DNA of 32,679 bases from Myxococcota bacterium (GTDB taxonomy: Bacteria; Myxococcota_A; Polyangia; Polyangiales; Houyiibacteriaceae), in the NCBI GenBank assembly GCA_025453555.1, contig JALOQC010000020.1, positions 1 through 32,679 on the forward strand, read 5' to 3'. How positions within the stretch are numbered: position 1 is the first letter of the stretch; each line of letters opens with the position of its first letter. Below are positions 11,101 to 32,679 of this stretch, in pieces. The position numbers were made by a program, and so were the translations under genes. A model generated the notes under the pieces. That model ran no database searches. It saw only the letters and a program-made list of their open reading frames with translations, and had not been told where the DNA came from.

Positions 11101-12069
11101 CGCATCGGTTTCTTCGGGCGAGGAGCGCCGACCCTCGGCGGCCGCGCGGAGCTGATCGAGGAAGCCCGAGAGATCGTGTGCGCCCACGCGTCGACCGCTC
11201 GCGTAGAGGAACTGGATCAGATCTTCGTAGAGCAGGCCCGCGTTCGCGTGACGCTCTTCGGGACGCGGGCTCGTGGCCTTGTCGACGATCGCGACGAGCT
11301 CGTCGGGGACGTGTGGCGCGACGGTGCGCAGCGGCGTGGTCTCCCCGCGGCGCGCGCGCTGCAACGTCTCGTAGGTGCTCGGTTGCAGGAACGGGTGCGT
11401 GCCCGCGAGCGCTTCGTAGAGCACGACGCCGAGCGCATAGAGGTCGGTGCGCGCGTCGACCGCCTCACCGCGCGCCTGCTCGGGCGCCATGTACGCGTAC
11501 TTGCCCTTGAGCACGCCGTGCTCGGTGCCTTCGGGCACCGTCGTGCGCGCCTTCGCGATGCCGAAGTCGGTGAGCTTCACCTCGCCTTCCCAGCTCACGA
11601 GCACGTTCTGCGGCGAGACGTCGCGGTGCACGATGTTCATCGGCTGCAGGCTCGCGTCCCGGCGACGGTGCGCGTAGTCGAGGCCTTTGGCGACCTCGCT
11701 CACCACGTAGGCCGCGAGCTCGACCGGCAACGGCTTTCCGTACTTGCGGGAGCGCCGCAGCACCGTCGCGAGGTCCGCCCCCGCGACGTACTCCATCGCG
11801 ATGAAGTAGGTCTCGTCGGCGCGCCCGAGGTCGAACACCTGCACGATGTTCGCGTGCGAGAGCGTCACCGCGATCTTCGCTTCGTTGACGAACATCTCGA
11901 CGAACGAAGGGTTCTCGCCGAGCTCCGCGAGGATGCGCTTGATGACCAGGATCTTCTCGAAGCCTTCGACGCCGTGGGCCTTGGCCTTGAACACCTCGGC
12001 CATGCCGCCCCGCGCGAGCAGCTCGATCAGCTGGTACTTCCCGTAGACGACCGGCGCCTTGTCCACCAC
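8107..12069 (-). CDS. Ser/Thr protein kinase with cyclase-like, AAA ATPase and TPR modules
   Basis: 1320 residues. Residues about 12-290 are a Hanks-type kinase with a glycine loop (LLARGGMAEVF), Lys44, Glu63, HRD at 148-150 (HRDVSPQNV), DFG at 168-170 and MAPEQARG. All catalytic residues are present, so it should phosphorylate Ser/Thr. After a polar linker, residues about 376-500 resemble a class III nucleotidyl cyclase fold but lack the metal-binding Asp pattern. Next is an ATPase of the AAA_16/STAND type with Walker A GEAGSGKT near 555 and an FDD Walker B near 676. The rest (about 820-1300) is a long TPR array. No membrane segment is seen, so it is probably cytosolic. The start is GTG 12069 or GTG 12066, the latter six bases after GGAG. 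Kinase-ATPase-TPR fusions are common in myxobacteria; the signal sensed is unknown. Confidence 0.92.
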   Translation of the reverse strand: MVDKAPVVYGKYQLIELLARGGMAEVFKAKAHGVEGFEKILVIKRILAELGENPSFVEMFVNEAKIAVTLSHANIVQVFDLGRADETYFIAMEYVAGADLATVLRRSRKYGKPLPVELAAYVVSEVAKGLDYAHRRRDASLQPMNIVHRDVSPQNVLVSWEGEVKLTDFGIAKARTTVPEGTEHGVLKGKYAYMAPEQARGEAVDARTDLYALGVVLYEALAGTHPFLQPSTYETLQRARRGETTPLRTVAPHVPDELVAIVDKATSPRPEERHANAGLLYEDLIQFLYASGRRVGAHDLSGFLDQLRAAAEGRRSSPEETDAGLKAAFEIETSSARNESSELTPVEVPSARTSGASRVTTGASKRTPSRAASAAARQRHDVTLLLATNVDDQAAEHVRRNGGEVLPAADGRFRAVFGLRAHDGRDTEAAARAALALTHASPGSFVAVEAGRAETSTKGELVGELGELETATIAVLDVAIPGRPAIGPAAARAARRYFDLRARSAPEGQAPIEELVGERNLTEAHGQFVGRRDVLRRIGEVLAIAAKGRQCLLSLVGEAGSGKTRLLVETLRRLRRGGHDVAMHVCRVPAGSSDVPLATCQEMLRVLLGIEELESATESAEKVARLRELGLQKPELDAVSRTLGLDTAELVGSPTRPLLAAIARIATKLAEDRPTVFAFDDFEGVDAESLALLRALVLRPSNGRIVVAVAHRPDFRVDWGDAPHHHEVRVGPLDDEDVARLVAARLGTEEVPAELLRDVKLKSAGNPLYVEEYLLALRDANVVRVERHGDEVRAVFQPETQKVSLPRSLRGIVASRLRRVPVAAKEALHVAAVIGGRFHDVMVAHVTGWSLDETTEHLEDLVSRGLLVRAGAREYGFAHGLLPEVLRDELPIDGLKELHGAVGRAFEEVYPDHLDDLAERLAHHHKEAGNRSRAIDFLVRAADRLESEQALGGAIAFLRRALEMLAQDTVARAQADRDRTLELYRRLGDLCVRARELQQGLELMEAALDVAEGLGRDELVARFSLLRGQCLAFLNRFAEAQRWLERARTVARGVGNRDLLRDVTTATADLHARNGEYGRAIGLLREALELAREANDSRAQIRCLLPLALAHAGRADRDESQSALAEAQALAGPRPERIVECELLKTECLVAFYTGDPQRALDAGHRALELGKEYGFAYEAAVNAHNLGETYLRLGDYKRAFAMLRYSYDVARDHGYQKLQYTNLRVLGFIDATKLGSEEGRARIVEAATFAEENGYLWDVVQARYMLGVVEHQRGATEESEKMFREVLRLASETGMQHYARAAEEALAALEAGQPVPMPS

Positions 12070-12266: not shown

Positions 12267-12338
12267 GCCATCAGGCCGGGAGCCGCCGTCAGCACGGGAG
12301 CCGCCGTCGGGAACGCGGTCGCCGTCAGGCCGGGAGAG
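12267..12338. repeat. Degenerate 18-bp tandem repeat spanning the ABC gene stop codon
   Basis: Four consecutive 18-bp units begin at 12267, 12285, 12303 and 12321. Each starts GCCATC or GCCGTC, and units 1, 2 and 4 continue CAGSMCGGGAG. On the minus strand units 1, 2 and 4 each carry TGA in the frame of the ABC gene (12271, 12289 and 12325). The first one met is its stop codon and two more lie behind it. Confidence 0.6.
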
Positions 12339-14325
12339 CCGTCTCGCCTGACGCCGTCCCACCGCGCTGGAGCTGATGCAGGCGTGCGTACACGCCTCCG
12401 AGCGCGACGAGCTCCTCGTGGGTCCCCTGCTCGACCACACGCCCTCGGTGCAGCACGACGATCCGATCCGCGCGCTCCACCGTCGAGAGCCGGTGCGCGA
12501 TCACGAGCGCGGTGCGCCCTGCGAGCGCCACGTCGGCCGCGCGCTGGAGCGCGTGCTCGGTCTCGGAGTCGACGCTCGCGGTCGCCTCGTCGAGCAGGAG
12601 CACGTCCGCGTCGCGGTAGAGAGCGCGCGCGAACGCGAGGAGCTGCCGCTCGCCCGCGCTGAAGTTCTTTCCGCGCTCGTCCACCCGCGCGCCCAGCCCG
12701 CCGCGCTTGTCCACCAGCGCGCTCGCGCCCACGTCGCGCAGCACCTGGGCGAGGCGCGCTTCGTCGGGGGCGGGGTCGCCGAGCGTGAGGTTCTCTCGGA
12801 GCGTGCCCGCGAAGAGGAAGACGTCTTGCGGCACCACGGAGAACGAGCGTCGGAGCGCTCGCGGCGCCTGCTCGCGCACGTCGCGTCCGTGCAGGCGCAC
12901 CGCGCCGGTTTGCGGCTCGTGCAGGCGCAGCAGCAGCGACGTGAGCGTCGTCTTGCCCGAGCCCGTCGCGCCCACGAGCGCCACCGTCTGGCCGCGGTTC
13001 ACTTGGAAGCTCACGTCGTGGAGCACGGGGTGGCCCTCGCGGTACGCGAAGGTGACGTGCTCGAAGGTGATCGCGACGTCGCTCTTCGAATCGGCGCTCG
13101 ACGAATCATCGCTCGACGAATCATCGCTCGACGAATCATCGCGGTTCGAATCACCATTCTTCGAATCGTCTCCCGCCGAACCACCCACGCGCGCCGAGCG
13201 ATCCGCGACCTGCACCTCGAGCGCTTCGCGTGCGGGCGCGTCGAGCTCGTTCGTGTCCAGGAGCGAGAAGATGCGCTCTGCGGACGCGAGCGCCGATTGA
13301 ATCAACGTGTACTTCGTCGCGAGGTCGCGCACCGGCTCGAAGAAGCGCTGGATGTAGTCGTAGAACGCGACCACGGTGCCCACCGCGAGCGCGGAGTGAC
13401 CGTCCGCTTCCGCCCAGCCCGCACGCACCGCGCCGAACCAGATCACGAGCGCGACGCACGCGGTCGAGACGGATTGCACCACGCTGTAGAGCAACGCGTC
13501 GTATCGAATCGAGCGGTAGTTCGCCTCGCGGTACGCCTCGTTCACGCGTGCGTACTCGGCCGCGCAGTCTGCCTCGCGCCCGAACGCCTGCACCACCGGC
13601 AGGCCCTGCACCTGCTCGCTCAGGTACGAGTTGAGCTGCGCGACGCGGAGGCGGATGTCCCGGAAGGCCGAGCGCGCCCAGCGCCGGAAGAGGTTCACCG
13701 CGAACACCAGCGGCGGCAACGCCACGAACGCGACGAGGCTGAGCTGCCAGTCGATCCAGAGCATCGCCACCACGATGCCGACCAGCGTGAGCACGTCGGT
13801 GATCGCGGTGACCGCCCCCGACGCGAAGAGCTCGCTGATGCCGTCGACGTCGTTCGTGAGCCGCGTGACGATGCGCCCGACCGGCGTGCGATCGAAGTAC
13901 GCGATGCGGAGCTTCTGCACGTGCGCGAAGAGCGCGGCCCGCAGGTCCGCGGTCGCGCGCTGGCCGGTCAGCTGGAGCACGTACGTCTGCGCGAAGCGCG
14001 TCACGAACTCGAACGCGAGCACGCCCGCGAACGCGATCACGACGAAGCGCAGGCCCGCCGCGTCGTCCGCGAGCATCGCGTCGATCGCACGCTTGAGGAG
14101 GTAGGGCTGCAGCAGCCCGCCGATCGCGGCCAGCGGCATCAGGAGCAGCGACGCCGTGAAGAGCCCCGCGTGCGGCTTCACGAAGGGAAGGAGCCGACGC
14201 AACAACGAGACGTCACGCGCGACGTCCGAGACCTGCTCGGCGTTCGCTTCCACCAAGAGCCGCGCGTCTCGCGCACCGAGGGCCGGCGGTCGCGTGCCCT
14301 CGCTCGGGCGTGTCGAAGCGCTCAC
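12325..14325 (-). CDS. ABC exporter subunit, half-transporter with catalytic Glu
   Basis: 666 residues: a polar N-terminus, a six-helix type IV exporter membrane domain (about 45-340) and an ATPase domain (about 425-650). Walker A is GATGSGKTT, Walker B LLLDEATASVD with the catalytic Glu, and the switch His is in VIAHRLSTV. The signature, however, reads FSAGERQ instead of LSGGQ. A low-complexity linker (DDSSS repeated three times within GDDSKNGDSNRDDSSS) joins the two domains. It starts with GTG 14325 in a GTGA overlap with the stop of its partner, so both are translated together. The altered signature here and the Asp in the partner's Walker B both fall on the same ATP site, as in heterodimeric exporters such as TM287/288 or BmrCD. 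The substrate is not predictable. Confidence 0.92.
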   Translation of the reverse strand: MSASTRPSEGTRPPALGARDARLLVEANAEQVSDVARDVSLLRRLLPFVKPHAGLFTASLLLMPLAAIGGLLQPYLLKRAIDAMLADDAAGLRFVVIAFAGVLAFEFVTRFAQTYVLQLTGQRATADLRAALFAHVQKLRIAYFDRTPVGRIVTRLTNDVDGISELFASGAVTAITDVLTLVGIVVAMLWIDWQLSLVAFVALPPLVFAVNLFRRWARSAFRDIRLRVAQLNSYLSEQVQGLPVVQAFGREADCAAEYARVNEAYREANYRSIRYDALLYSVVQSVSTACVALVIWFGAVRAGWAEADGHSALAVGTVVAFYDYIQRFFEPVRDLATKYTLIQSALASAERIFSLLDTNELDAPAREALEVQVADRSARVGGSAGDDSKNGDSNRDDSSSDDSSSDDSSSADSKSDVAITFEHVTFAYREGHPVLHDVSFQVNRGQTVALVGATGSGKTTLTSLLLRLHEPQTGAVRLHGRDVREQAPRALRRSFSVVPQDVFLFAGTLRENLTLGDPAPDEARLAQVLRDVGASALVDKRGGLGARVDERGKNFSAGERQLLAFARALYRDADVLLLDEATASVDSETEHALQRAADVALAGRTALVIAHRLSTVERADRIVVLHRGRVVEQGTHEELVALGGVYARLHQLQRGGTASGETALPA
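13095..13139. repeat. Three perfect 15-bp repeats coding the DSS linker
   Basis: CGCTCGACGAATCAT occurs three times in a row, with degenerate relatives on both sides (TTCGAATCGGCG before, TTCGAATCACCA after). In the minus-strand gene it codes for repeated Asp-Ser residues between the membrane and ATPase domains. The 15-bp period keeps the frame. Confidence 0.85.
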
Positions 14326-16058
14326 GACAACGCCTCCAGCTCGCGCTCGAGCCGTTGCTTCGCGCAGATCCGAGCGTACGTGCCGCCCTTCGCGAGCAGC
14401 TCGCTCGGGGTCCCTTCCTCCACGACCTTGCCAGCGTCGAGCACCACCACGCGATCGCAGCGCTGCGCGGCGCCCGCGCGGTGGGTGACCAACACCAAGG
14501 TGCGCCCTTCGCCCGCGCGATCGAGCGCGCGCAGGATGATCGACTCCGTCCGCGCGTCGACCGCGCTCATCGGATCGTCGAGCACCAGCACCGTGGGCTC
14601 GCGCAAGAGCGCGCGCGCCAAAGCGATGCGCTGCTTCTGTCCACCCGAGAGCTGCACCCCGCGCTCGCCGACGAGCGTCTCGAGTCCGTCCGGCAAGCTC
14701 TCGATCTCGTCGAGCACCGCCGATTCGCGCGCGGCCTCACGGATGCGCTCGAGCGCGTCGGGTGCGCTCGGATCGTCGAGCCCGAACGCCAGGTTTCGCG
14801 CGACCGTGGTCGAGAAGAGAAACGGCTCCTGTGGCGCGTACGCGACCGAACGCCGCAGCTCCGTCGGCTCGACGTGCGTGACGTCGACGCCGTCCACGAA
14901 CACCGTGCCCTCTGGCGTCGGTCCGAGACGCGGCAACAGGCTCGCGAGCGTGCTCTTGCCGGATCCGACGGTGCCCATCACCGCGAGCGAGGTCTTCGCG
15001 GGCACCTCGAACGACACGCCTTCGAGGATCGGGCGGCCCTCGATCGCGTAGTGGAGATCGCGCACCTCGACCCGCCCTTCCCCCGACGGGACCTGCGGTT
15101 GCTCTGGCCGCGTGACCTCGGGCTCCGCGTCGAGGATCTCCCGCACCCGCGCGAACGACGCGCGCCCTCGCTGCACGATCGAGAGCAACCAACCGAGCGC
15201 GAGGGTCGGCCACAAGAGCTGCGCGAGGTACGCGTGGAACGCCGCGAGGTCGCCGACCCCGAGCTCGCCGTCGAGCACCATCTGCCCGCCGCGCCAGAGC
15301 ACCGCGAGGGTGCCGAGCGAGAGCGTCAGCAGCATGAGCGGCCACATCAGCCCGCGCAGCACGACCAGCCTCATGTTCGCGCGAATTGCGGCGGCGTTGG
15401 CGGCGTCGAAGCGTGAGGCCTCGAGATCCTCCACCGCGAACGCGCGCACCACCCGCACGCCCGAGACGTTCTCGTGCGCGACGTCCGCGAGCTTCCCGAG
15501 CGCCTCCTGGGCTTCCTTGCTGCGCACGAAGATCGCGCGGCCGAAGCGGTACATCAGCAGCACCACGAACGGGAACGGTGCGAGCGCCCAGAGCGTGAGC
15601 TCGGGGCTGAGCACGAGCATCAGCGCGATCGCGCCGACGAAGGCGAACACGCTGTTGACGACGTTGAGCGCGCCGAAGCCGACCAAGAGGCGCACCTGCC
15701 CGAGGTCGTTCGTGGCGCGCGTCATGATCTCGCCCGTCGGCATCTTGCGGAAGAACGCCGCGCCGAGGCGGTGAACCTGCGCGAGCATCCGCGCGCGGAG
15801 CTCGTGCTCGACGTCACGACCGACGTTGAAGATCACGATGCGCGAGCGCGTGCGGACGATCCAGAGCCCCGCTGCGAGCCCGATCACGCCGAACGCGTAC
15901 TGCTTCACGACCTCGAGCTCCCCCTCCGCGAGCCCGTCGACCGCGCCACGGAGGAGCCACGGGATGGCTTTGTCGAGCGCGTTCGTGAGCAGCAGCAGGA
16001 GCGTGCCGAGCGCGAGCCGCGACGCGTGCGGCCGCACGATGTCGACGAGGGAGGTCAC
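14322..16058 (-). CDS. ABC exporter subunit with degenerate Walker B (Asp for Glu)
   Basis: 578 residues, the normal size of a half exporter. GTG 16058 is the only sensible start; GGAG lies nine bases upstream, and the open frame further left has no start codon before it runs over another gene. There are six predicted membrane helices (first LALGTLLLLLTNAL), the coupling region (GEIMTRATNDLGQVR) and an ATPase domain with Walker A GTVGSGKST near residue 362, Q-loop YAPQEPF, a perfect signature LSGGQKQR near 469 and the switch His in LVTHRAG. Walker B reads VLVLDDPMSAVD, with Asp where the catalytic Glu should be, so this half hydrolyses ATP poorly (known from heterodimeric exporters). Its signature completes the good site of the partner encoded downstream, with which it overlaps by four bases. 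Confidence 0.92.
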   Translation of the reverse strand: MTSLVDIVRPHASRLALGTLLLLLTNALDKAIPWLLRGAVDGLAEGELEVVKQYAFGVIGLAAGLWIVRTRSRIVIFNVGRDVEHELRARMLAQVHRLGAAFFRKMPTGEIMTRATNDLGQVRLLVGFGALNVVNSVFAFVGAIALMLVLSPELTLWALAPFPFVVLLMYRFGRAIFVRSKEAQEALGKLADVAHENVSGVRVVRAFAVEDLEASRFDAANAAAIRANMRLVVLRGLMWPLMLLTLSLGTLAVLWRGGQMVLDGELGVGDLAAFHAYLAQLLWPTLALGWLLSIVQRGRASFARVREILDAEPEVTRPEQPQVPSGEGRVEVRDLHYAIEGRPILEGVSFEVPAKTSLAVMGTVGSGKSTLASLLPRLGPTPEGTVFVDGVDVTHVEPTELRRSVAYAPQEPFLFSTTVARNLAFGLDDPSAPDALERIREAARESAVLDEIESLPDGLETLVGERGVQLSGGQKQRIALARALLREPTVLVLDDPMSAVDARTESIILRALDRAGEGRTLVLVTHRAGAAQRCDRVVVLDAGKVVEEGTPSELLAKGGTYARICAKQRLERELEALS

Positions 16059-16277
16059 GCGCGGAGGCTCCGGGACGTACTGCGCGGTCGAGGTTGGCTC
16101 ACGCTGTTCAAACCGAGGTGAAGTGGGGATCTCGAGGTGGGGTGGATTGCGTCGCGCGAGGACGCCAGGCGTGACGTCGACGGTCGTCGCGCCGCTTTCG
16201 CCGGACGAGGTCGTGGCGCCGTACCACGACCGTGTGACGCTCGCCTCCGCGACCCGAAAGCCGACCCCAGAAACGCC

Positions 16278-16307
16278 GCGCGGCGGCCCGAGAACGAGCC
16301 GCCGCGC
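16278..16307 (-). terminator. Hairpin, 10-bp stem, after the metalloprotease gene
   Basis: GCGCGGCGGC (16278-16287) pairs perfectly with GCCGCCGCGC (16298-16307) around a 10-base loop. It lies 17 bases downstream of the metalloprotease stop (16325) on the minus strand and is followed by GCGTTTCTGG. The gap from 16059 to 16277 holds nothing else I can name; the promoter of the ABC pair should be there. Confidence 0.5.
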
Positions 16308-16324
16308 CACGATCTCACGTGCGT

Positions 16325-17959
16325 TCAGCGCTTGCGCCGACGGCGCACCACGAACGCGAGCCCCGCGAGCGCGAGGATCGCAGGGGCCGCGGGATGCCCG
16401 GAGCCGAGCCCCGGCGCCGCACATCCGCAGCCGCCGTCGCCCCGTCCACGACCGCCCGCCGGCGGGACGCAGATCGCGGTGTCTCCGAGCGGAGTGCACG
16501 TGAAGCTCGGCGGGCAAGGATCCGCATCGCCGCAGTAGTCGGTGCAGAACGTCTCGTCGCCGTTGACCGCGCAGAGCCCGGACGCGCAGTCGTCGTTCGT
16601 CCCGCACGCGTCGCCTGGCTGACCGAGATCGGCCTCCGAGCGGCACGCACCGCAGCCCGGCGCCGCTCCCGGTCGACACACGAAGCCCATCGCGCAGGTG
16701 CTCACGCCCGCGTCCGGTCGGCACGGCGTCGCGCACACGCTGCCGTCACACATCAGCGTCGCGCAGTCGGTGTCGGTCGTGCAGCTCGCGCCGAGCGGCG
16801 CGCCGCCCGCAGCGCCCGCGAGGCACAGACCCGTGCCGCACACGCCCGCCGCCTCTCCGTCGCAGTAGAAGCCGGACGGGCACGACGACGTGTTGAAGCC
16901 GTCGCACGACTGGCTGCACACGCTGCCCGCCGGGGTGGTCGCGCAGAGCCCCGAGTTGCACGCGTCGTTGCTGGCGCACGGCTGTCCGAGCTCCGCGCCC
17001 CCCGTCGGACGCGCCTCGCAGCGACCCGTCGACGTGTTGCAACGCTGAGTGGCCGAGCACTCGGAGTCGCTGCGGCAGCCGGTGGGCGTCGCGCCCGCGC
17101 AGGAGGGGCTCCCGCCGACGACGCCGATGCACTGCCCGGAGCCGCTCACGTTGAAGCACTGATAGCCGGCGCCGCAGTCGGCCGAGCTGGAGCACGCGCG
17201 CCCGCAGAAGGCGCCGCCCGTCGGGTACATGATGCAGAAGTTGCCCGCCCCGCCGCACTGGCTGCTGTCCGAGCACGGCGAGCAGAGCGATCCGTCGCCC
17301 ATCACCGGCCGACACGTGCCGCTGACACACTCCTGTCCGCTCGGGCATCCGGTCGTGGTGCAGTCGGCGCTGCCGCTGCCGGGATACAGGGTGCAGATGC
17401 CGTTCGAGTCGTCGCTGCCGATCGCGTCGATGCCGCCCGTGTAGGCGAAGTACATGGTCGCGCCGCGATCGTCACTGTGGCCGAGGCCGTAGTAGTGGCC
17501 ACCCTCGTGGAGGGCGATCGAGTACGCGTTCACGTTCGAGCCCGAGCCCGCGCCCGTGATCCACGTGAAGTTGACCCCGTTCATCTCCATGTCGGCTTCG
17601 ACGATGCAGTTGCGGCCGTCCCAGCGCGGACCGGTCACGCCGATCGCGCTGCTCCCGTGCCGCCAGCCGCTCTCGACCCAGCCGATGAGCGAGCGTCCGT
17701 CGCCCGCGCCGGCGGTGCCGGTGCTGCGGCCGGTGTAGTTGTTCGTGAGGTTCGTGCACGCGACGCGCGTCCAGTCGTCCATGCCCCGCTGCGTCTCGCT
17801 GATCGTCGTCGCCTCCCCGAGATCGGGCGAGGTGATCGTGATGCCGTAGGGCACCGTCTGGCACCACTTCGGGCACGAGCCGGTGAGACACTCCCACGCG
17901 AGCGCGGGCTGGCTCACGAACGTCGCGCCGAGCGCGATCACGAGTCCGAGGCGGTTCAT
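16325..17959 (-). CDS. Secreted matrixin-like metalloprotease with Cys-rich repeats and MYXO-CTERM tail
   Basis: 544 residues. A signal peptide (LGLVIALGATFVSQPALA) is followed by a metzincin domain with the zinc motif HEGGHYYGLGH (His151, Glu152, His155, His161) and a Met-turn at Met169 (GATMYFAY), as in matrix metalloproteases. Residues about 195-500 are Cys-rich repeats of the type CxSxxDCxxGxxC (for example CSSSADCGAGYQC and CRSDSECSATQRC), likely disulphide-bonded. The end is a sorting tail: CGCAAPG, a hydrophobic stretch (AILALAGLAFVV) and RRRRKR, matching the MYXO-CTERM pattern that anchors proteins to the myxobacterial outer surface. GGGAGG precedes ATG 17959 by six bases. It overlaps the upstream gene by four bases (ATGA). 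The target is unknown. Confidence 0.92.
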   Translation of the reverse strand: MNRLGLVIALGATFVSQPALAWECLTGSCPKWCQTVPYGITITSPDLGEATTISETQRGMDDWTRVACTNLTNNYTGRSTGTAGAGDGRSLIGWVESGWRHGSSAIGVTGPRWDGRNCIVEADMEMNGVNFTWITGAGSGSNVNAYSIALHEGGHYYGLGHSDDRGATMYFAYTGGIDAIGSDDSNGICTLYPGSGSADCTTTGCPSGQECVSGTCRPVMGDGSLCSPCSDSSQCGGAGNFCIMYPTGGAFCGRACSSSADCGAGYQCFNVSGSGQCIGVVGGSPSCAGATPTGCRSDSECSATQRCNTSTGRCEARPTGGAELGQPCASNDACNSGLCATTPAGSVCSQSCDGFNTSSCPSGFYCDGEAAGVCGTGLCLAGAAGGAPLGASCTTDTDCATLMCDGSVCATPCRPDAGVSTCAMGFVCRPGAAPGCGACRSEADLGQPGDACGTNDDCASGLCAVNGDETFCTDYCGDADPCPPSFTCTPLGDTAICVPPAGGRGRGDGGCGCAAPGLGSGHPAAPAILALAGLAFVVRRRRKR

Positions 17960-22354: not shown

Positions 22355-22663
22355 GGATGGGTCTCGAAGGGAAACGATTCAACTCCGTGCGGGTCGTCGC
22401 GCCCCCTCGCAGGATACGCGGGGCCCGCGGCGACGGCTCGCCGTTCGGGCGCGACGAGCCACGCGGTCCTCAACCCACGACTCCGCACGCCTGTTCCACC
22501 CGCCACGTGCGGGGCGAGCGAGCCCGCGAGCCCTCGGGAGCGTGCGGCGAGTGCGCTTCGGCTCCCGGCTCCACGTCGGGGGACCCCCGTCGTCGCACAT
22601 CGCCCTCGACTGCGTACTTGCTGCCACCGACGTGAGGTGTACTCTCGCCGCTTCTGGAGGCTT
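22355..22663. other. Divergent promoter region between HtrA-like and PP2C genes
   Basis: These 309 bases separate two divergently transcribed genes and should hold both promoters. On the plus strand TTGCTG (22618-22623) and TACTCT (22640-22645), spaced by 16 bases, are the best but weak candidate for PP2C. The protease promoter could not be placed. No gene is seen. Confidence 0.5.
22618..22645 (+). promoter_or_regulatory. Candidate sigma-70 promoter for the PP2C gene
   Basis: TTGCTG (22618-22623) and TACTCT (22640-22645) are 16 bases apart, and the start codon lies 19 bases after the -10 box. TACTCT also occurs before the lipoprotein gene (24949-24954). Three of six positions match the -10 consensus, so confidence is low. 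Confidence 0.25.
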
Positions 22664-23425
22664 GTGGGGCTGAGCAGACACGGAGCCGGTTCGACGGACG
22701 TGGGGCGGCGTCGCGCGGTCAATCAAGACGCGTTCTACTGCGACGACACGCTCGGTCTCTACGTGGTCGCGGACGGCATGGGTGGTCACGCCGCGGGCGA
22801 GATCGCGAGCGCCGAAGCCGTGGATCAGGTGCTCGGCATGGTCGCGCGCGGCCGAGGGATCCTCGATCGCCTCGCGGAGGGCGACACCTCGGAGCCCACG
22901 CTGCGCCAAGCGATTCGCGTGCTCGAGAGCGCCGTCCAAGCCGCGACGTACATGGTCTTCGGGCTCGCCCAGGCCGACCCCGAACGGCAGGGCATGGGCA
23001 CCACCCTGAGCGCGCTGGCCATCTGCGGGAGCTACGGCATCACCGCGCAGGTCGGAGACAGCCGCGTGTACTTGGTGCGCGACGGGCGCGCGATGTCGCT
23101 CACCGAAGATCACACGCTGGTCGCGTGGCAGCTCAAACAAGGAATCATCACCGAAGAAGAGGCGCGCGTCTCGCCGCATCGAAACGTGATCACGCGCGCG
23201 GTCGGCTCACGCGACTACGTGCAAGTGGACACGCACTTCTTCCAGGCCCAGACGGGCGATTCGTTCTTGCTCTGCTCGGACGGGCTGCACGGTTACCTCG
23301 ACGACGACGAGATCCCTCCCATCGTGTCGGATGGCCCGCAGAACGCGGTGCGACGCTTCATCACGCTGGCAAACCAGCGCGGCGGTCGCGACAACATCAC
23401 CGCGGTCGTGGTCACGCTCGACTGA
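22664..23425 (+). CDS. PP2C-family Ser/Thr protein phosphatase
   Basis: 253 residues from GTG 22664; GGAGG lies three bases upstream, which is close, but no better start exists. The frame is open leftwards to 21467, but that part is antisense to the HtrA gene. The full PP2C set is present: GSTDVGRRRAVNQDAF, VADGMGGHAAGE, GMGTTLSAL, QVGDSRVYLV, LCSDGLHGYL and GGRDNITAVVV, with the metal-binding Asp residues. These Mn/Mg-dependent enzymes remove phosphate from proteins phosphorylated by Hanks-type kinases. A kinase gene is about 11 kb away on the same contig, not adjacent, so pairing is only suggested. No membrane segment: soluble cytosolic enzyme. Confidence 0.92.
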   Translation: MGLSRHGAGSTDVGRRRAVNQDAFYCDDTLGLYVVADGMGGHAAGEIASAEAVDQVLGMVARGRGILDRLAEGDTSEPTLRQAIRVLESAVQAATYMVFGLAQADPERQGMGTTLSALAICGSYGITAQVGDSRVYLVRDGRAMSLTEDHTLVAWQLKQGIITEEEARVSPHRNVITRAVGSRDYVQVDTHFFQAQTGDSFLLCSDGLHGYLDDDEIPPIVSDGPQNAVRRFITLANQRGGRDNITAVVVTLD

Positions 23426-23430
23426 CCGCA

Positions 23431-23556
23431 GAGGACGCGTCGCCGAGGACGCGTCGCCGAGGACGCGTCGCCGAGGACGCGTCGCCGAGGACGCGGCGCC
23501 GAGAACGCGTCGCCGAGGACGCGTCGCCGAGGACGCGTCGCCGAGAACGCGTCGCC
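23431..23556. repeat. Tandem array of a 14-bp unit (GAGGACGCGTCGCC)
   Basis: Nine perfect-length units run from 23431 to 23556. Six are identical, one reads GAGGACGCGGCGCC and two GAGAACGCGTCGCC. Each standard unit contains the palindrome GACGCGTC. The array fills nearly all of the gap between the stops of the convergent PP2C (23425) and aminotransferase (23563) genes. Its sequence is unrelated to the array at 8000, but the period is the same. Confidence 0.92.
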
Positions 23557-23562
23557 GAGCGC

Positions 23563-24897
23563 TCAGCTCGCTTCGCGCACCATCGCCGCGATGCGATCCA
23601 TCGCCTCTTCGAGGACCGAGAGCCCGGGCCCGAAGCTGAAGCGCACGTGGTGACGGAAGCGCGACGGGCGGCCCATGCGGCGCTTGCCGGGGTTGATGTC
23701 GAAAAAGTGCCCCGGCACCGTGATGACCTTGCGATCGAGCGCGGCCTGGAAGAAGTCGTCGCCGTGCCGCAGCGAGGGCGGCAGATCGCGCAGGTCGCCC
23801 CACGCGTAGAAGGTGCCTTCGGGCTCGGCGTCGAAGCGCACCCCGACCTCGCGCAGACGGCGAAGGAGGTAGTCGCGCTTGGGCGCGAAGGTCTCGTGGA
23901 TCGCGTTCGTCTCGTCGAGCACGAGCTTCTCTTCGAGGAGCGGGATCGCCGCGCGCTGCATCGGCGCGGATCCGCCGCCGTCGAGGAAGGAGCCCGCGCT
24001 CGCGGCCGACTCGATCACGTGCTTGGGCCCGAGGATCCAGCTCACGCGGAAGCCCGGATAACGCCAGTTCTTCGTGAGCCCGTCGAAGATCACGACCGGA
24101 TCGCGGTCGACGTCCTCCACGTAGCGGGCGGCGGTCACGATGGGCGCCTCGCCGCGGGCCTTCGCGGCCGCGACCTCGGGGCCGGTCCAGACGTAGTGCG
24201 AGTAGAACTCGTCGATCAGGAGCGCCGACCCGAGGCTGCGCGCCGCGCTCGTCCACGCCGCGAGCTGGTCGCCCTGCACGGTCTTGCCGGTCGGGTTGCA
24301 CGGGTTGCTGAGCAGCAGCGCGCCGAGACCGCGCCCGAGGATCTCGCGTCGCAGCTCGTCGCTCGTGAACTCGTAGCCCTTGTCGGGATCGAGCAGGATC
24401 GGGATGGGCTGGAAGCGCCGGAAGACGTCGAGGAGCTCTTCGTAGGCGGTGTAATCCGGCAAGAAGTGGCCGAGATGCACCGGCGCGACGGCCGCACAAG
24501 CGCGCATGATCGCGACGCGTCCTCCACCACAGATCGCCACGTTCTCCGCCGTGTATTGAGAGGGCATCCCGCGGCGGAAACGACGGTTGTAGAGGTCGGC
24601 GACCGCAGCGCGCAGCTCCATCAGGCCGGGCACCGGCGCGTAGTCGAGGTCCTGCGGGTGGACCGGGATCGTCTCGATGCGCGCGGGGGCGCCGGGGATC
24701 GGTCCGGTCTCGGGCTGACCCTGGCCGAGGTTGCACCAGCCCGGCGCGCCGAGGGAGAAGCCGCGTTTCTGGGCCTCCACGGAGACGTAGATCACGCCCG
24801 TGCGCGGCACGCGGCGGAAGGCGCCCGCCCCGTCGGCAGAGGGGGCATCGAAGGCGTCGGCGAGGAGCGGGGAGACCGGATCGGGCGTGTCGGACAT
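23563..24897 (-). CDS. PLP-dependent class I/II aminotransferase
   Basis: 444 residues from ATG 24897. It has the fold-type I aminotransferase marks in order: NPCNPTGK around Asn201, DEFYSHY with Asp229 and Tyr232, the PLP Lys276 in FDGLTKNWRYPG and an Arg284 region, and a C-terminal HHVRFSFG. The enzyme transfers an amino group between an amino acid and a 2-oxo acid; the substrate cannot be read from the sequence. The N-terminal 35 residues are longer than usual and polar. It is convergent with PP2C, with an array between them, and divergent from the lipoprotein gene. The ribosome site is weak (GAG twelve bases upstream). Confidence 0.9.
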   Translation of the reverse strand: MSDTPDPVSPLLADAFDAPSADGAGAFRRVPRTGVIYVSVEAQKRGFSLGAPGWCNLGQGQPETGPIPGAPARIETIPVHPQDLDYAPVPGLMELRAAVADLYNRRFRRGMPSQYTAENVAICGGGRVAIMRACAAVAPVHLGHFLPDYTAYEELLDVFRRFQPIPILLDPDKGYEFTSDELRREILGRGLGALLLSNPCNPTGKTVQGDQLAAWTSAARSLGSALLIDEFYSHYVWTGPEVAAAKARGEAPIVTAARYVEDVDRDPVVIFDGLTKNWRYPGFRVSWILGPKHVIESAASAGSFLDGGGSAPMQRAAIPLLEEKLVLDETNAIHETFAPKRDYLLRRLREVGVRFDAEPEGTFYAWGDLRDLPPSLRHGDDFFQAALDRKVITVPGHFFDINPGKRRMGRPSRFRHHVRFSFGPGLSVLEEAMDRIAAMVREAS

Positions 24898-25107
24898 CGG
24901 TATTGGCTCGCAGAAACGGCGTCGCGTGCGATTCGCGCGGGAGCGCGCTACTCTAGTGACTCTGGCGATGGTGTCGGCTGAGCGGGGTGCTCGGTCGACC
25001 TGGAGCGACCCCACCGAGCTGGGAAGGGTCGCGGCGAAGCGCGGGTGGCAGGGGTGCCCTCCGCGCGGGTGGCGAAAGGTGCCGCGAAACGCGGTCGGGG
25101 TCGAACG

Positions 25108-26106
25108 ATGATGTGCTTTCGACGTTGGGGCCTGGTCCTGGGGTTGCTGGCTGGGTCGATGCAGTGGGGGTGCGCGGCGAGCCCTGGCTCCGGGAGCGAC
25201 GCCGGCCGAGATGCCGGTCGCGACGCCGGGTCGCGGGACGCCGGCGATCCCTTCCGCGACGCGAGCGGACGCAACGACGGCTCGACGATCGAGGACGCGG
25301 ACGTCCCGATCGACGCGGACCCGATGGACTCGGGGACCGACGCGGGCGAGCCGGACGCGGGCTTCGACGCCGGCACGGATGCGGGCACCGACGCCGGCCG
25401 CGACGCGGGGACGGACGCGGGCACCGACGCGGGCATGACGATGCCGGTCCTGACGGTGGACGGCGTCGTGACCGACACCGAGTGGATGGGCGCGACCCGC
25501 ATCGTGAACACCGTCCCGACCAACTGGGGCGCCACGCAGAATCGTCTGGATGCGCTCCGCACGATCGTGGATGGAGGCCGCCTCTGGATCGCGGTCGAAG
25601 GTCTGGTGGAGAGCACCAACGCGATCGTGGTCTACGTGGACACGGATCTGCCGGACACCACCACCGGCCTCGCCGCGTTCGCGACGATGACGGACTCGTC
25701 GGGCTCGCTCGACAACGCGATCTCGGCCCTGTTCACGGTTCCGTCGAACTTCTACGTGGACTTCGCGTGGGGCACCCGCGCGATGGGCACCGACCCCGCG
25801 CCGGTCACGAACGACACCATGGACGGCTTCAACACGAACATCGGCTGGCGCGACGTCGCCCTCAATCCGGCAGACTTCGCGTGGGTCGGCCACGGCGACG
25901 CGCCGGTCGAGTGCGGCGCGAGCGCCTGTGAGACGAGCATCGCGCTCACCCGCCTCGGCGCGACGAGCGGCGATCAAATCGCGATGTTCGTCCGCCTGAC
26001 GAACGCGATGGGCACCGCGTTCAACAGCCGGCAACGGCTCCCGGAAGATGGGATGGAGCTCGACACCCAGAACGTCGGCATGGTCCACGTGGTCACGGTG
26101 CCCTGA
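25108..26106 (+). CDS. Lipoprotein with Asp-Ala-Gly repeat linker and CBM9/DOMON-like domain
   Basis: 332 residues from ATG 25108 (GGGG eight bases before; a second ATG follows at once). A lipoprotein signal (WGLVLGLLAGSMQWGC) has its Cys at position 22, with an unusual Gln at -3. Residues about 28-110 are an acidic linker of repeated Asp-Ala-Gly, common in large myxobacterial lipoproteins. The rest is beta-rich and starts VDGVVTDTEWMGATRIV, continuing DGGRLWIAVEG and IVVYVDTD. This is the pattern of CBM9/DOMON-like domains that bind sugars or haem (tentative). The protein probably sits on the outer side of a membrane with the domain held away by the linker. It has its own promoter region and a hairpin after the stop. 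Confidence 0.85.
   Translation: MMCFRRWGLVLGLLAGSMQWGCAASPGSGSDAGRDAGRDAGSRDAGDPFRDASGRNDGSTIEDADVPIDADPMDSGTDAGEPDAGFDAGTDAGTDAGRDAGTDAGTDAGMTMPVLTVDGVVTDTEWMGATRIVNTVPTNWGATQNRLDALRTIVDGGRLWIAVEGLVESTNAIVVYVDTDLPDTTTGLAAFATMTDSSGSLDNAISALFTVPSNFYVDFAWGTRAMGTDPAPVTNDTMDGFNTNIGWRDVALNPADFAWVGHGDAPVECGASACETSIALTRLGATSGDQIAMFVRLTNAMGTAFNSRQRLPEDGMELDTQNVGMVHVVTVP
25198..25434 (+). repeat. Degenerate Asp-Ala-Gly coding repeats
   Basis: Within the lipoprotein gene the codons for Asp-Ala-Gly recur about twelve times, first as DAGRDAGRDAG and later as DAGTDAGTDAG, with a less regular Asp-rich stretch between. Synonymous codons vary between copies (GCC and GCG for Ala), so the repeat is old or held by selection on the protein. 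Confidence 0.85.
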
Positions 26107-26400: not shown

Positions 26401-29400
26401 ATGGCTCAACCCCCCTCCATTCCCCCTTCGGCCAGCACTGCCGCGAGCACTGCCCCGGCGAACCCGACGCGCCCTCCCGGCCCCACCGACGAGGGCTTCG
26501 TGCACGACGCGCTCGCGGGCCTCGCGGCGCGCGAGGGATCGAAGGTCGAGCAGGCCTTCTTGCACTGGCGCCTCGGCACGCTCGCGGAGCGGGCAGGCGA
26601 TCCCGCGAGCGCGGTGAAGGCCTGGCTCACCGCCTACAACCTCGCGCCCGGGTTCCGCGCGCCGCTCTTCGATCTCACGCGCGTGTTCGAGCGACGTCGC
26701 TCGTTCAAGAACCTCCAGCGCCTCTACGAGGCGGAGCTCAAGAGCGCGCGCAGCCCGATCGAGCGCGCGTCGGCGCGGGTGGACCTCGCGGGGCTCTTCG
26801 AGGATCGCCAAGGCCGCGCGGAGGACGCGCTCGTGGAGCTCGCGACCGCGCTGGACGATGCGGCCGACGATCCGGGCGCGCGTGCGACCGTCGGGTGGTT
26901 CCTGGAGCGCGCCGCGCGCCGGGCGTCGCAGCCGGATCTCGTACGCAAGGCGCTCCGCGCGCAGGCCGACTCCGCGCTCGATCCGGTGTGGAAGACGCTG
27001 CTCCTCGTGGACCTCGCGGAGGAGCGCGCGGCCGAAGGCACCGACGATGCGGCCGCCGAGGCGCTCGCGATCCTCGACGAAGCGCTCGCGGCGGGCGCGG
27101 CGCGCGCGCGGGTGCTGCACGCGATCGAGCGGATCGCGCGGCGGCACGACGACGTCGACGCGCTGGTGCGCGCGCTCGACGGGCTCGCGGAGCTGGCGGC
27201 ACAAGCCGCGCGCGGCGAGCCCGACGCCGGCTCGGGCGCGTTCAGCGTCGAGCGCCTCTCGAGCGGCGCGCGCGCGGCGGGGCAAGCTGCCGGCGCGTGG
27301 CTCGAAGCGGCGGGGCTCCTGCTGCATCGTCGCTCGCAGCCACAGGACGCCGCGCGCCGTCTCGCGTCGGCGGTGGCCCTCCGACCGGACGACGCGTTGC
27401 TCCGCGCGATGCTCGTCGAGGCCGCTGCGGCCGCGGGTGATCACGAGGTCGTGCGCCGCGAGAGCGCGGAGCTGCTGGAACGCAGCCTACCGCCGGGGCT
27501 GGCGGCGGGCTTGCTGTTCCACGCCTCGCGGGCCGCGCGCGCGGCAGGTGATCCGGAGGCGCTCGTACTGATCGAGCGCGCGCTCGAGCTCGCGCCCGGC
27601 TCGTTCGTACTGCGCGCGACGCTCGACCGTTGGCTCGCGGCCGATCACCGCTTCGACGTGTGGATCGACGTCCTCGCCAAGCGCGAGGGCGACGACGAAG
27701 AGCGAGGTCTGGCGCTCTGGCGCGCGGCCACGATCGCGGAGCTCGATCTCGGCGACGGCGCGCGTGCACGTGCGCTCTACGCACAAGCGGCGGAGCGGCT
27801 GCCCTCGCCGGGCCCGGTGCTCCGCGAGCTGCTCGAGTCCGCGCTCGCCGCGGGCGACGACGAGGCGGCGAGCGACGCGATCGCGACCTTGCTCGCGGGA
27901 GAGCTCTCGCCCGAGGAGCGCTCGGCGCTGCTGCGCGACCGCGTGCTGCTCTTGGCGCGCACCGAAGGCGCGGAGAGTCGGCTCGCGGCGGCGATCGATC
28001 ACGCGATCGGGGCGAGCGAAGCGAGCGTGTGGGCGCCCGACGAAGCGCGCGTGCGCGCGGGAGAGGCGCGACGGTTCTCGACGCTGACGAAGGCGCACCT
28101 CACGCTCGCCGCGCTCGCGGACGACGAGGAGCTCGCGGCGGCGCACTTCGCGGCGGCGGGACGCGCGGCGGTGCGCGGAGGCGACGATGCAGCGGCGGAG
28201 TCGGCGCTCCGCGAAGCGCTCGAGCGCGCGCCCGGACATCGCTACGCGACCGCGCTGCTCGAAGAGGTCTACCGTGCGCGCGGCGACGCGGACGCGGTGG
28301 TGGCCCTGTTGCGCGAGGCGGCCGAAGCACACGGCGGAACGCGCGCGGCGCTGGTGGAGCTGCTGCTCGCAGGTGCGGCCGCCGAAGCCGCGGGCGACGT
28401 GAAGCTCGCGGCGGACACCTACGAAGAAGCCGCGGATCGTCAGCCCGACGCGCGCGCGCCGCTGTGGGCGCTCGAGCGCCTCGCGCTCTCGACCGGCGAC
28501 GACGCGCTGCTCCTGCGGGCTCGCGAAGGGCTCTCGGAGCGCGAGCTCGCGGACGGCACGCCGGGACGCGCGACGTTGGAGCTCGGGGATCACTACGTGC
28601 GGCTCGGGAAGAGCGCGCTCGCGGAGGCGCCGCTGCGTGCGTGCCTCGACAGCGCCTTCGCGCTCGAAGCGGCCGCCGCGCTGGTGGCCGCGCCGGCGGA
28701 CGAGATCGACCCTTCGGCGCGCGTGGCGGCGCTCGAGGTACTGCTTCAGGAGGCGGTGCGCGAAGCCAACCGGCTCGGCGCCACGGGCGAAGGCGGCGCG
28801 AGCGATGCGCCGACCTTCCGGCGCGAGCTCGGGCTCGCCGCCGCGAACGAGGGCTTCGAGCCAGGGCTCGCGATCGAGTGCGCGGCGGCGCTGCTCGAGG
28901 GCGTCGACGAAGGCGGCGATCCTTGGGCGCTGCTCACGCAGCTCCGCGCGGCGGGCCAGGACCAACGCTGGAACGAGCGCGCCGACGTGTACCTGCGGCT
29001 CGCCGAGGGCACGAGCGATCCGAACGAGCGCGCGAGCCTCTTGCTGCACGGGCTCCGCGCGAAGGTGGTCGCGGACGCCGACGCCGCAGACGACGCGTTC
29101 CTGCTCGCGCAGGAGCTCGTCGGCGAGGACGACGAAGGTGGCGCGGCGGCGGTCGCGACGGACGAGACGCTCGAAGGCGGAGACGACGCGGACGCCCGCG
29201 CCGAGGCACTGCTCGCGCGGCTCGGGCACGTGGAGGGCCCCGCGACGGCGACGCTGACGGCGGCGGCGGGGCGTGCGCTCGGTGCGGCGCGACGCAGCCG
29301 CGAAGCGCTCGATCGTCTGCACGCGGTGGTGACCGCGGACCGTTCGGATCTCGCGTCGTGGGAAGCCTTGCGGCTGGTCGCGCGCGAAGCGGGCGCGTGG

Positions 29401-31260
29401 GATCGCGTGGTCGAAGCGTGCGACGTGCTGGCCGAGCACCTCGACGGGGACTCGCGTCACGAGATGCGCGAAGAGGCGGCGGCGGTGTTGATCGATCGGC
29501 TGAATCGGCCCGCCGAAGCGAAGCAGCGCCTGCAAGAGGTCGTGCTCGCGGATCCGACGCGCCCGAACGCGTACCACCGCATGCACGATCTCCTCGCGGA
29601 CGAAGGCGACACCGAGTCGCTGCTCGCACTCGTGAAGACGCGCATCGACGCGATCGACGACAGCGCGCAGCTCGAGCGGCTGATCTACGAGCAGGCGCGT
29701 CTGCACCGCTCGCTCGGGCAGCTCGATCGCGCGCTCGCCGCGATCGACGACTTGCTCTTGCTCGACGAGCACCACGTCGGCGCGATCGCGCTCGCGATCG
29801 AGATCCGCGTGCAGCGCGAGGAGTGGCAAGAGGCGGTCGACGCGCTGCGCCGCCTCGCGAGCAGCGACGTGCCCGCCAAGCAGAAGCGCATCGCGCACCT
29901 CGGCGCGGCGGACTTCCTCGAGAACAAGCTCGGTGATCCCACGGGCGCGCTCGCCGAGCTCGCGGCGATCGACGCGCTCGGGCTCGCAGACGCCGCGCTC
30001 CACGAGCGACGCGCGGAGGTGGCGACGCGCGCGGGCAACGTGCCGGCGGCTGCGGACGCGCTGCTTCGGGCGGCGGAGCTCTCCACGGGCGCCGATCGAC
30101 TTCAACGCGTGAAGCTCGCCGCGCGGCTGCTCACCCGCGACGGACGCGACACCGACGGAGCGCTGCTCGCGTGGCGGCAGGTGCTCGATCTCGTGCCGAC
30201 CGAGCTCGAAGCCGGTGCCGCGATCGACGGGCTTCTGGAGTCGGCGTCGGCGCGGCTCGGACATTCGCAGAGCTTCGAGCGCGCGGTTCGACAGCACATC
30301 GAGAAGGAGGGCGTCGACGCCGACGGCCTCCGTCGGCTGCGTGCGGCGGCAAAGTGGCGCGGCGACGCGCTGCTCGAGCACGCGGTGCTCCACGTGCTCG
30401 CGGGCTTTGGGCTGGCGGACGACGACGAGCGCGCGGCGAGCGACGAGATCACGTCGGTGTTCACGCGCACCTCGCTCGGCGCGCTGAGCGAGGGTCAGCT
30501 CGTGCTGGTGCGGGGTCCCGCCGACGGGGGGCCGGAGCTGGAGCTCGCCCGGCTGGTGCAGGAAGACCTGCTCGAGAGCGTGGGTCTCGACCTCGGCCAC
30601 CTCGGCGTGGGTCGACAAGATCAGGTGCCGGCGAAGCGACCGAGCACGGTGCGCGACGAGCTCTCGACGCACGCGCGCCTCTTCGGGCTCGAGACCGAAG
30701 ACTTCTACGTCGGTGGCAACGACGCTGGGCGCATCCTCGCGCTGCCGGGCCGCAAGGGCGTGGTGTGGATCGCGGGTAGCGGTGTCACGAGCCCGTTCGA
30801 TCCCATCCGTCGCTTCGCGGCCGGCCAGCAGGCGTATGCCGCACAGCGTGGCGTGCTGCCGCTGCTGCGGCGTCCGCCCGAAGACGCCGCGCTGCTCTTG
30901 GCCGCCGTCTGTCTCGCCTCCGAGGCGCCGCTCGCGGCCGCGCAGGGCAAGAGCGTGGTGCCCGAGCTCGCGTCGCGGCTCGCCCGCACCTTGCCTCGCA
31001 AGACGCGCAAGGCCGTGCAGCAGCTCGCGCCGACCTTGCCCGAAGGCGGCGCGCGGTTGCTCACGTTCTGTCGGGACGTGCGGCGAAGCGCGATGCGCTG
31101 CGGTCTCTTGCTCTCCGGTGACCTCGTCGCGGTGCTCGAAGCGCTGCTCGACGAGGCGCCGCGGCTCTACTCCGTCCGCGCGTCGGTCGATGCGACGGAT
31201 CTCCTGCTCTTCTGGATCTCGCCGGCGATGCTGGAGCTTCGCCGAGGGTTGGGCGCGTGA
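26401..31260 (+). CDS. Very long TPR-repeat protein
   Basis: 1619 residues from ATG 26401; the frame is open further left to 26230, but that part is low-complexity. No signal peptide or membrane helix is seen. A Pro/Ser/Ala-rich start of about 30 residues is followed by helix-turn-helix units over most of the length. Examples are FLHWRLGTLAERAGDPASAVKA-type pairs, EARVRAGEARRFSTL, and units ending in ALERAPG or EDRQGRAEDA. These are TPR-like and Ala-rich, and fit a superhelical scaffold that binds protein partners. The last 250 residues differ (FGLETEDFYVGGNDAGRI, then WIAGSGVTSPFDPIRRF) and may be a globular domain. The stop overlaps the start of the next gene (GTGA). I do not know its function; TPR giants of this kind occur in myxobacterial motility and secretion loci, but nothing here proves either. 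Confidence 0.85.
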   Translation: MAQPPSIPPSASTAASTAPANPTRPPGPTDEGFVHDALAGLAAREGSKVEQAFLHWRLGTLAERAGDPASAVKAWLTAYNLAPGFRAPLFDLTRVFERRRSFKNLQRLYEAELKSARSPIERASARVDLAGLFEDRQGRAEDALVELATALDDAADDPGARATVGWFLERAARRASQPDLVRKALRAQADSALDPVWKTLLLVDLAEERAAEGTDDAAAEALAILDEALAAGAARARVLHAIERIARRHDDVDALVRALDGLAELAAQAARGEPDAGSGAFSVERLSSGARAAGQAAGAWLEAAGLLLHRRSQPQDAARRLASAVALRPDDALLRAMLVEAAAAAGDHEVVRRESAELLERSLPPGLAAGLLFHASRAARAAGDPEALVLIERALELAPGSFVLRATLDRWLAADHRFDVWIDVLAKREGDDEERGLALWRAATIAELDLGDGARARALYAQAAERLPSPGPVLRELLESALAAGDDEAASDAIATLLAGELSPEERSALLRDRVLLLARTEGAESRLAAAIDHAIGASEASVWAPDEARVRAGEARRFSTLTKAHLTLAALADDEELAAAHFAAAGRAAVRGGDDAAAESALREALERAPGHRYATALLEEVYRARGDADAVVALLREAAEAHGGTRAALVELLLAGAAAEAAGDVKLAADTYEEAADRQPDARAPLWALERLALSTGDDALLLRAREGLSERELADGTPGRATLELGDHYVRLGKSALAEAPLRACLDSAFALEAAAALVAAPADEIDPSARVAALEVLLQEAVREANRLGATGEGGASDAPTFRRELGLAAANEGFEPGLAIECAAALLEGVDEGGDPWALLTQLRAAGQDQRWNERADVYLRLAEGTSDPNERASLLLHGLRAKVVADADAADDAFLLAQELVGEDDEGGAAAVATDETLEGGDDADARAEALLARLGHVEGPATATLTAAAGRALGAARRSREALDRLHAVVTADRSDLASWEALRLVAREAGAWDRVVEACDVLAEHLDGDSRHEMREEAAAVLIDRLNRPAEAKQRLQEVVLADPTRPNAYHRMHDLLADEGDTESLLALVKTRIDAIDDSAQLERLIYEQARLHRSLGQLDRALAAIDDLLLLDEHHVGAIALAIEIRVQREEWQEAVDALRRLASSDVPAKQKRIAHLGAADFLENKLGDPTGALAELAAIDALGLADAALHERRAEVATRAGNVPAAADALLRAAELSTGADRLQRVKLAARLLTRDGRDTDGALLAWRQVLDLVPTELEAGAAIDGLLESASARLGHSQSFERAVRQHIEKEGVDADGLRRLRAAAKWRGDALLEHAVLHVLAGFGLADDDERAASDEITSVFTRTSLGALSEGQLVLVRGPADGGPELELARLVQEDLLESVGLDLGHLGVGRQDQVPAKRPSTVRDELSTHARLFGLETEDFYVGGNDAGRILALPGRKGVVWIAGSGVTSPFDPIRRFAAGQQAYAAQRGVLPLLRRPPEDAALLLAAVCLASEAPLAAAQGKSVVPELASRLARTLPRKTRKAVQQLAPTLPEGGARLLTFCRDVRRSAMRCGLLLSGDLVAVLEALLDEAPRLYSVRASVDATDLLLFWISPAMLELRRGLGA

Positions 31261-32679
31261 ACCAAGACGACGACGATTTCGAGCTGGATCCGGATCTCGA
31301 CTCCGCGCTCGACGCGTGGGCGCAAGACTTCGAGCAGCAGGCGAAGGCCGAATCGGCCCCGATGCCGCAGGCGTCGGTGAAGTCGGCGCCACCGCCGCCG
31401 AAGCCCGCGCCCGTCGCCGCGAAGCCGAGCGAGGGTCGGCCTCGTCCGCTGTATCAGCCAGATCCCGAGCTCCTGCGTGGCCGCGAGGCGCCACGGCGCC
31501 CGGCACCTGCGGCTCCGCCTCCAGCCGCGCCTCCGCCGCAGGAGCGCTTTCCGTCGTTCGCGGACGACGACGACGAGATCGAGGAGTCGACGAAGATCGC
31601 GTCGATCCCCAAGGAGCTGATCGCGTCGCTGCAAGAGGTCGCCGCGGCGCGCGAAGCCAAGGAGCGCGCGGAGGCCGAAGCTCGCAAGCCCTCCGAGCCG
31701 AGGCCGGCGTCGACGAGGCCGCCACGCTCTCCGGTGCCCGGCATCGATCTCGATCTCGACGATCTCTTCGAGGGCCTCGACAAAGAGACGAACATCTCGG
31801 ATCTGCCCGCGCAGACCGCGCGCAAGGAGCCAGCCGCACAAGCCGCGCGGACTCCCGTTCCGCCGACCCCCGCCAGCGAACGCCCGCCGACGCCCGACGA
31901 GGTCGCCGCCGCGCAGTCGATCGAGTCGCTGGAGACCGACTTCCTGGACCCCTTCGCGGACTCCACGCCGGTGCCGACGGGTGACGTGCCGAGCGCCGAG
32001 CCGGAAGCACGCGCCGAAGCGCCGAAGCCGCTCCCGCCGCGTCCGATGCCCCCGACGCCCAAGGCGCTGCCGCCGCGCCCGGCCCCTCCGCTGGGGAAGG
32101 GACTGCCTCCGCGACCTGCGGTGCCGCCGTTGAAATCCCCCGCGGGCTGGAAGCCTCCCGCGCCGCCGCCTGGGCTCGGGCGCCCGAGCGCGGACGACGT
32201 GAGCACGCTGGAGCGTCCGCTCGACAGCGACGCGCGATCCGTGGAAGCCGCCGCGAGCGCGGCCGCCTCGGGCGCGGAACCCGCCGCACGAAAGCGAGAG
32301 AGCGACTTTCCGGATCTCGAATTCGACGAGCCCGTGGATCCGGGCGCCGCCCTCGACGAGCCTGCGGCAGAGCGCGCGTTCTTCGATGCACCTCTCGGTG
32401 CCCCCGGTGAGACCGACCCCGATGCGTCCGCTGCCGACGAGCTGGACGACCTCCTCGCGTCGGTCCCGCCTCCACCGACTGGCGCCTCGGTTGGCTCGGC
32501 GCCGAGCGAGGACGAGCCCGAGCTCGCCTTCGACGAGCCCAACGACGACGACGCGCCTGCGACGGCATCGCGACGCACGAGCGCGGACGACGACGAGCCC
32601 GAGCTCGCCTTCGACGAGCCCAACGACGACGACGCGCCTGCAACGGCATCGCGACGCACGAGCGCGGACGACGACGAGC
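31257..32679 (+). CDS. Acidic, proline-rich protein, runs off the right edge
   Basis: At least 474 residues; no stop before the window ends. GTG 31257 overlaps the TPR stop as GTGA, and the frame is open throughout. Part of it is overlapped by long minus-strand frames that look like artefacts. It begins with an acidic, possibly helical stretch (NQDDDDFELDPDLD, then ALDAWAQDFEQQ) and then alternates acidic blocks with Pro/Ala/Lys-rich linkers. LPPRP occurs three times within about 30 residues (near 32030-32120). A possible coiled segment (ELIASLQEVAAAREAKERAEAEAR) lies near 31615-31690. The right end has two copies of a 27-residue acidic unit (DEPELAFDEPNDDDAPATAS). It is probably disordered and may be a docking partner for the TPR protein (inference). 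Beyond the window it could contain a folded domain. Confidence 0.85.
   Translation, partial: MNQDDDDFELDPDLDSALDAWAQDFEQQAKAESAPMPQASVKSAPPPPKPAPVAAKPSEGRPRPLYQPDPELLRGREAPRRPAPAAPPPAAPPPQERFPSFADDDDEIEESTKIASIPKELIASLQEVAAAREAKERAEAEARKPSEPRPASTRPPRSPVPGIDLDLDDLFEGLDKETNISDLPAQTARKEPAAQAARTPVPPTPASERPPTPDEVAAAQSIESLETDFLDPFADSTPVPTGDVPSAEPEARAEAPKPLPPRPMPPTPKALPPRPAPPLGKGLPPRPAVPPLKSPAGWKPPAPPPGLGRPSADDVSTLERPLDSDARSVEAAASAAASGAEPAARKRESDFPDLEFDEPVDPGAALDEPAAERAFFDAPLGAPGETDPDASAADELDDLLASVPPPPTGASVGSAPSEDEPELAFDEPNDDDAPATASRRTSADDDEPELAFDEPNDDDAPATASRRTSADDDE
32511..32679 (+). repeat. 81-bp tandem repeat at the right edge
   Basis: A unit starting GACGAGCCCGAGCTCG begins at 32511 and again at 32592, with the first seven bases of a third copy at 32673. 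The two full copies differ at one base (GCG versus GCA, both Ala). The 27-codon period keeps the frame. The array continues out of the window. Confidence 0.93.

Follow-up and report, generated by a model that had tools for sequence, protein, structure and literature searches.

The described system closest to the locus analyzed here is that of GltI (also AgmK), a cytoplasmic component of the gliding machinery and one of those about which least is understood. In M. xanthus, GltI has 4132 aa (PMC3169522), and it has been described in a review as a scaffold which, with GltG, joins the Agl motor (AglQ) to MreB (PMC13104615). This giant TPR protein lacks a signal peptide and membrane segments, is made as a single polypeptide of ~3350-4200 aa, and has its gene in the glt G1 cluster (gltD-E-F-G-...-I). 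In the genomes compared here, GltI was identified via the synteny of this cluster: in several relatives it is a ~3350-3390-aa TPR protein behind gltF-like, gltG-like (FHA+TonB_C) and TPR lipoprotein genes, and in a genome of the phylum that consists of one contig, gltD-, gltE-, gltF- and gltG-like genes precede a 4156-aa TPR protein, a glt gene order and a GltI length matching those of M. xanthus (PMC3169522). More broadly, generic TPR solenoids (O-GlcNAc transferase, CTR9, PrsT/MamA-type) share the TPR superhelix fold with the proteins described below, with no non-TPR domain or function in common and with NCBIfam scores far below cut-offs.

The window, i.e., the whole stretch of 32,679 nucleotides that was analyzed, is one contig (C230) of a fragmented source assembly of 699 contigs. 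Its last part carries two genes, A and B, which are relatives of GltI but not GltI. The pair consists of two genes (1619 + ~2090 aa) as against a single polypeptide, lies outside any glt cluster, falls in clades separate from that of GltI, and has in B a disordered acidic/proline tail as a feature of its own.

Gene A and the true extent of gene B

Gene A (26401..31260, plus strand) encodes a GltI-like giant TPR protein of 1619 aa, as indicated by its coding GC3 pattern and by homologues in the closest relatives, in which the ATG at 26401 aligns with residue 1 of the query. The helical scaffold of 1619 residues expected in the original prediction was borne out: for residues 930-1340, AlphaFold2 gave a helical solenoid of TPR type (pLDDT mainly 80-96), and according to Foldseek this model resembles TPR superhelices, e.g., that of O-GlcNAc transferase. 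Pfam TPR models score above cut-off in both A and B, and both proteins display the 34-residue helix-pair repeats and the solenoid of the TPR repeat superfamily, with AlphaFold2 and Foldseek covering part of A. As far as can be judged from the sequence, A has neither signal peptide nor transmembrane segment, a likeness to GltI that B shares. Its composition (16% acidic residues, 4% proline) differs from that of the first 474 residues of B (21% D+E, 19% P). Residues 1311-1619 (30331..31257, plus strand) comprise the end of the TPR region and a non-TPR C-terminal domain which, from hhalign comparisons, is common to B and GltI.

Several observations concern the surroundings of A. A lipoprotein-like ORF with DAGTDAG repeats and without family match (25045-26106, plus strand) lies directly upstream, preceded by 2.6 kb (22380-24980) in which the coding-bias filter retains no ORF and Pfam gives no match. 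A 1320-aa Ser/Thr kinase-AAA_16-TPR protein is encoded at 8107-12069 (minus strand), and adjoins an ABC transporter gene pair at 12325-16736. No promoters or terminators above chance, and no matches to Rfam families or tRNA, were found.

The stop codon of A and the start codon of B overlap by 4 bp (GTGA, 31257..31260, plus strand); B starts with the GTG at 31257, and 474 codons are open up to the window end. This second ORF had been taken for a separate long protein, and the GTG start, the acidic/proline composition, the LPPRP motifs and the repeats have all been retained; its separateness has not. Contig C230 breaks off in an 81-bp (27-aa) tandem repeat (32499..32679, plus strand), the last 65 bases of which recur, exactly and in frame, as the opening 65 bases of another contig of this assembly, C183, where the ORF of B stays open for 1637 codons, almost all of them TPR according to Pfam. 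The window holds the 5′ part of B (31257..32679, plus strand), corresponding to residues 1-474 of a disordered acidic/proline tail of ~562 residues; the rest of the gene lies on C183 (L009:2-4915). The joined B has ~2090 aa, namely the ~562-residue tail and then ~1530 residues that make up the TPR region and the C-terminal domain, with an uncertain repeat number because assemblers collapse tandem repeats of such kind. An identical layout, with an acidic tail running into the TPR region, is found in the nearest relative (L010/L018) as a single uninterrupted ORF on one contig. The nearest named relative, in which this layout is seen, is the Myxococcota MAG ACE_MYX12, and A is 61-63% identical there.

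From the contig join and the uninterrupted ORF of the relative it follows that the “acidic proline-rich protein” is no more than the tail belonging to another giant TPR protein, its appearance as a separate gene being an artefact of the contig end. Reading past 32679, as the original prediction had proposed, leads into a giant TPR paralogue of A, and not to a stand-alone disordered acidic/proline-rich protein. In this sense, a repeat-broken contig end can mimic a separate “ligand” gene. In another genome (G016), contigs break at the start of B too (ends of L028 and L062), which is expected if the repetitive tail assembles poorly.

Paralogy, the GltI-type domain and pairing

A and B align in BLASTP with an E of 8e-7 over 519 columns, non-TPR end included, and their family alignments match in hhalign with prob 100 and an E of 1e-43 over 588 columns; on these comparisons, the two giant TPR proteins are paralogues. 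When the non-TPR ends, with GltI represented by the order-level proteins, are trimmed out and compared, hhalign gives a prob of 99.1 for A-B, 98.2 for GltI vs. A (score 95) and 97.6 for GltI vs. B (score 84), shuffled or reversed profiles scoring at most 22. A model of this C-terminal domain built from two sequences reached a pLDDT of 42, too poor for fold search, and Pfam had no convincing match for the GltI version of the domain. The idea that this domain is a degenerate M48-like peptidase was discarded, as no such Pfam match appeared even at E 10. The GltI-type C-terminal domain also recurs in other TPR proteins of ~600-1900 aa, several to a genome, both in the genome of the window (contigs C301 and C586) and in many class genomes.

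The original prediction had recognized no known system in the two genes. This part has to be withdrawn, since both carry the C-terminal domain common to GltI/AgmK of the gliding machinery; homology to a described complex, which had been named as an argument against an undescribed assembly, applies in part through the GltI family. On the other hand, the idea that A and B are a GltI split into two genes was rejected: the genome of the window has its own GltI, whose C-terminal part lies on contig C584, and GltI forms a separate clade. In the tree of the C-terminal domain, the upstream genes of the pairs are placed with A at a support of 98/94 and the downstream ones with B at 100/98; GltI stands in its own clade (100/100), and one pair (L046) is misplaced. 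This grouping implies that the A-B duplication is older than the class, which is probably Polyangia. GltI-type matches were found in all 59 class genomes searched, and also in phylum members beyond the class without B; among the matches beyond the class, proteins of ~1730 aa may be single-gene counterparts.

The proposal that the two genes form a pair was followed across relatives, with counts drawn from draft genomes by means of simple ORF calling. A was matched in 19/19 genomes of the relatives search, where the weakest matches may be generic TPR similarity. At the order level the pair was seen at 13/13 junctions, the overlap being exactly 4 bp in 12 of these genomes and 8 bp in the remaining one. 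Class-wide, B-type matches occur in 53/59 genomes (some of them TPR-only), the A-B pair is visible at 14 loci, and among 14 hold-out loci fetched afterwards it was present in 12, with a single gene in the other two. Beyond the class, one genome gave B-type matches, at E 1e-35. The separation of the genes in most relatives, which would have spoken against the pairing, was not observed: A-B is an evolutionarily fixed pair, kept at nearly all loci of the class at which the junction is visible. Besides, one genome harbors at a second locus a natural A-B fusion (L031:3980-11821, minus strand; G005:C71), a single ORF of 2613 aa in which A, C-terminal domain included, is joined to the TPR part of B and the tail is missing. 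The fusion supports a physical association of A and B and, together with the fixed pairing, suggests that they probably work together. The literature searched yielded no report of giant TPR proteins occurring as a pair in Myxococcota.

The disordered tail of B

The tail of B varies from ~70 to 704 residues across relatives, for which reason most of it looks like linker; the tails of L029 and L030, of only ~70 residues, indicate that length is not essential. Its most recurrent element is the N-terminal motif DLDSALDAWAQDFE (31293..31334, plus strand), and three LPPRP-type proline-rich motifs follow at 32031..32129 (plus strand). A motif of the type AL-x-x-W-D amid acidic residues near the start of B was present in 20/27 B N-termini (shuffled mean 0.58), to which the pattern had been fitted before the hold-out test; in the hold-out tails it was found in 3/14 (shuffled mean 0.20, max 2 in 2000) and was absent in 11/14. 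On its sequence, this aromatic-acidic motif is a candidate docking peptide. The notion of a built-in ligand or tether can be kept in part: the tail may be a tether, with a short aromatic-acidic motif recurring in many relatives, and a separate ligand protein has been given up.

Proposed role and alternatives

The analogy with GltI makes a scaffold in the cytoplasm the most likely role of A-B, and we regard as the better-founded reading, and a fairly probable one, a two-subunit GltI-like scaffold outside the glt cluster with the tail of B as flexible tether. An old duplication would have given rise to A and B, both giant TPR solenoids ending in a GltI-type C-terminal domain; the two proteins would be translated together via the overlapping stop and start codons and would most likely assemble with each other. 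The disordered tail of B may then act as a flexible tether presenting the short aromatic-acidic peptide to a partner, and the pair would probably, by analogy with GltI, tie a complex at the membrane to a platform in the cytoplasm. The idea of the tail as ligand survives as part of this explanation, although a separate ligand protein is refuted. Against a GltI-like scaffold, there is no glt cluster around A-B and the neighbors vary between orders. The original suggestion of motility or cytoplasmic organization pointed in the right direction through the GltI homology, motility being a putative role. More tentatively, A-B might be a second, as yet undescribed GltI-type machine core, an obligate scaffold pair docking an envelope or cytoskeletal complex through the tethered aromatic-acidic peptide of B; fixation of the pair since the origin of the window’s class of Myxococcota is part of this possibility and shares its tentative standing.

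A role of A-B as accessory of the gliding machine itself, i.e., an extra GltI-type platform at focal-adhesion complexes with Glt/Agl proteins, appears unlikely. The homology of the A and B C-terminal domains to GltI and the occurrence of GltI-type (59/59) and B-type (53/59) matches in the class genomes favor it, but A-B lies outside the glt cluster in a genome with its own GltI, and phylum members beyond the class have GltI-type matches without B, so that a GltI-based machine can do without the pair. Moreover, other duplicated glt clusters of M. xanthus left gliding unaffected when studied, nfs having its role in sporulation (PMC3169522).

The genes downstream of B bear on two further proposals. 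In families f18, f19, f20 and f25, two recurrent families of secreted lipoprotein-like genes lie behind B (L045, L049, L051, L056, L057), one with Big_9/PPC domains and the other without Pfam match, which would fit a cytoplasmic scaffold for envelope or surface-protein traffic linked to secreted Ig/PPC-domain lipoproteins. We consider this somewhat less likely still than a gliding accessory, as the window’s order has no lipoprotein genes at that place, where C200-nadD-DUF2520 is found instead. Throughout the window’s order, A-B-C200-nadD-DUF2520 follow one another in this sequence where contigs allow, partly with overlapping genes; C200 (L009:4945-5547) encodes 200 aa between B and nadD, without Pfam or NCBIfam match. 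This arrangement would be compatible with a metabolic role, e.g., an enzyme-organizing scaffold, for A-B and its operon partners nadD and DUF2520, a proposal that we deem improbable: other orders lack the linkage to nadD and DUF2520 but still have A-B as a pair, and NadD is a housekeeping enzyme, common in mixed operons. At L009:5577-5658, 15-bp tandem repeats encode (SESQG)n in the N-terminal extension of the nadD-DUF2520 fusion gene, and their copy number may vary. Finally, the earlier model of A as a TPR receptor for a separate acidic proline-rich ligand, suggested by the composition of the first 474 residues of B, is practically eliminated by the in-frame run into a giant TPR protein, seen across the contig join here and as uninterrupted tail-TPR ORFs in relatives whose contigs continue.

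The existence of this paired and class-wide branch of the GltI family outside the motility clusters hints at a wider use of GltI-type scaffolds, as a cytoplasmic toolkit of Myxococcota; the pair also offers a second, smaller system for learning what is bound by the common C-terminal domain and by the TPR solenoid.
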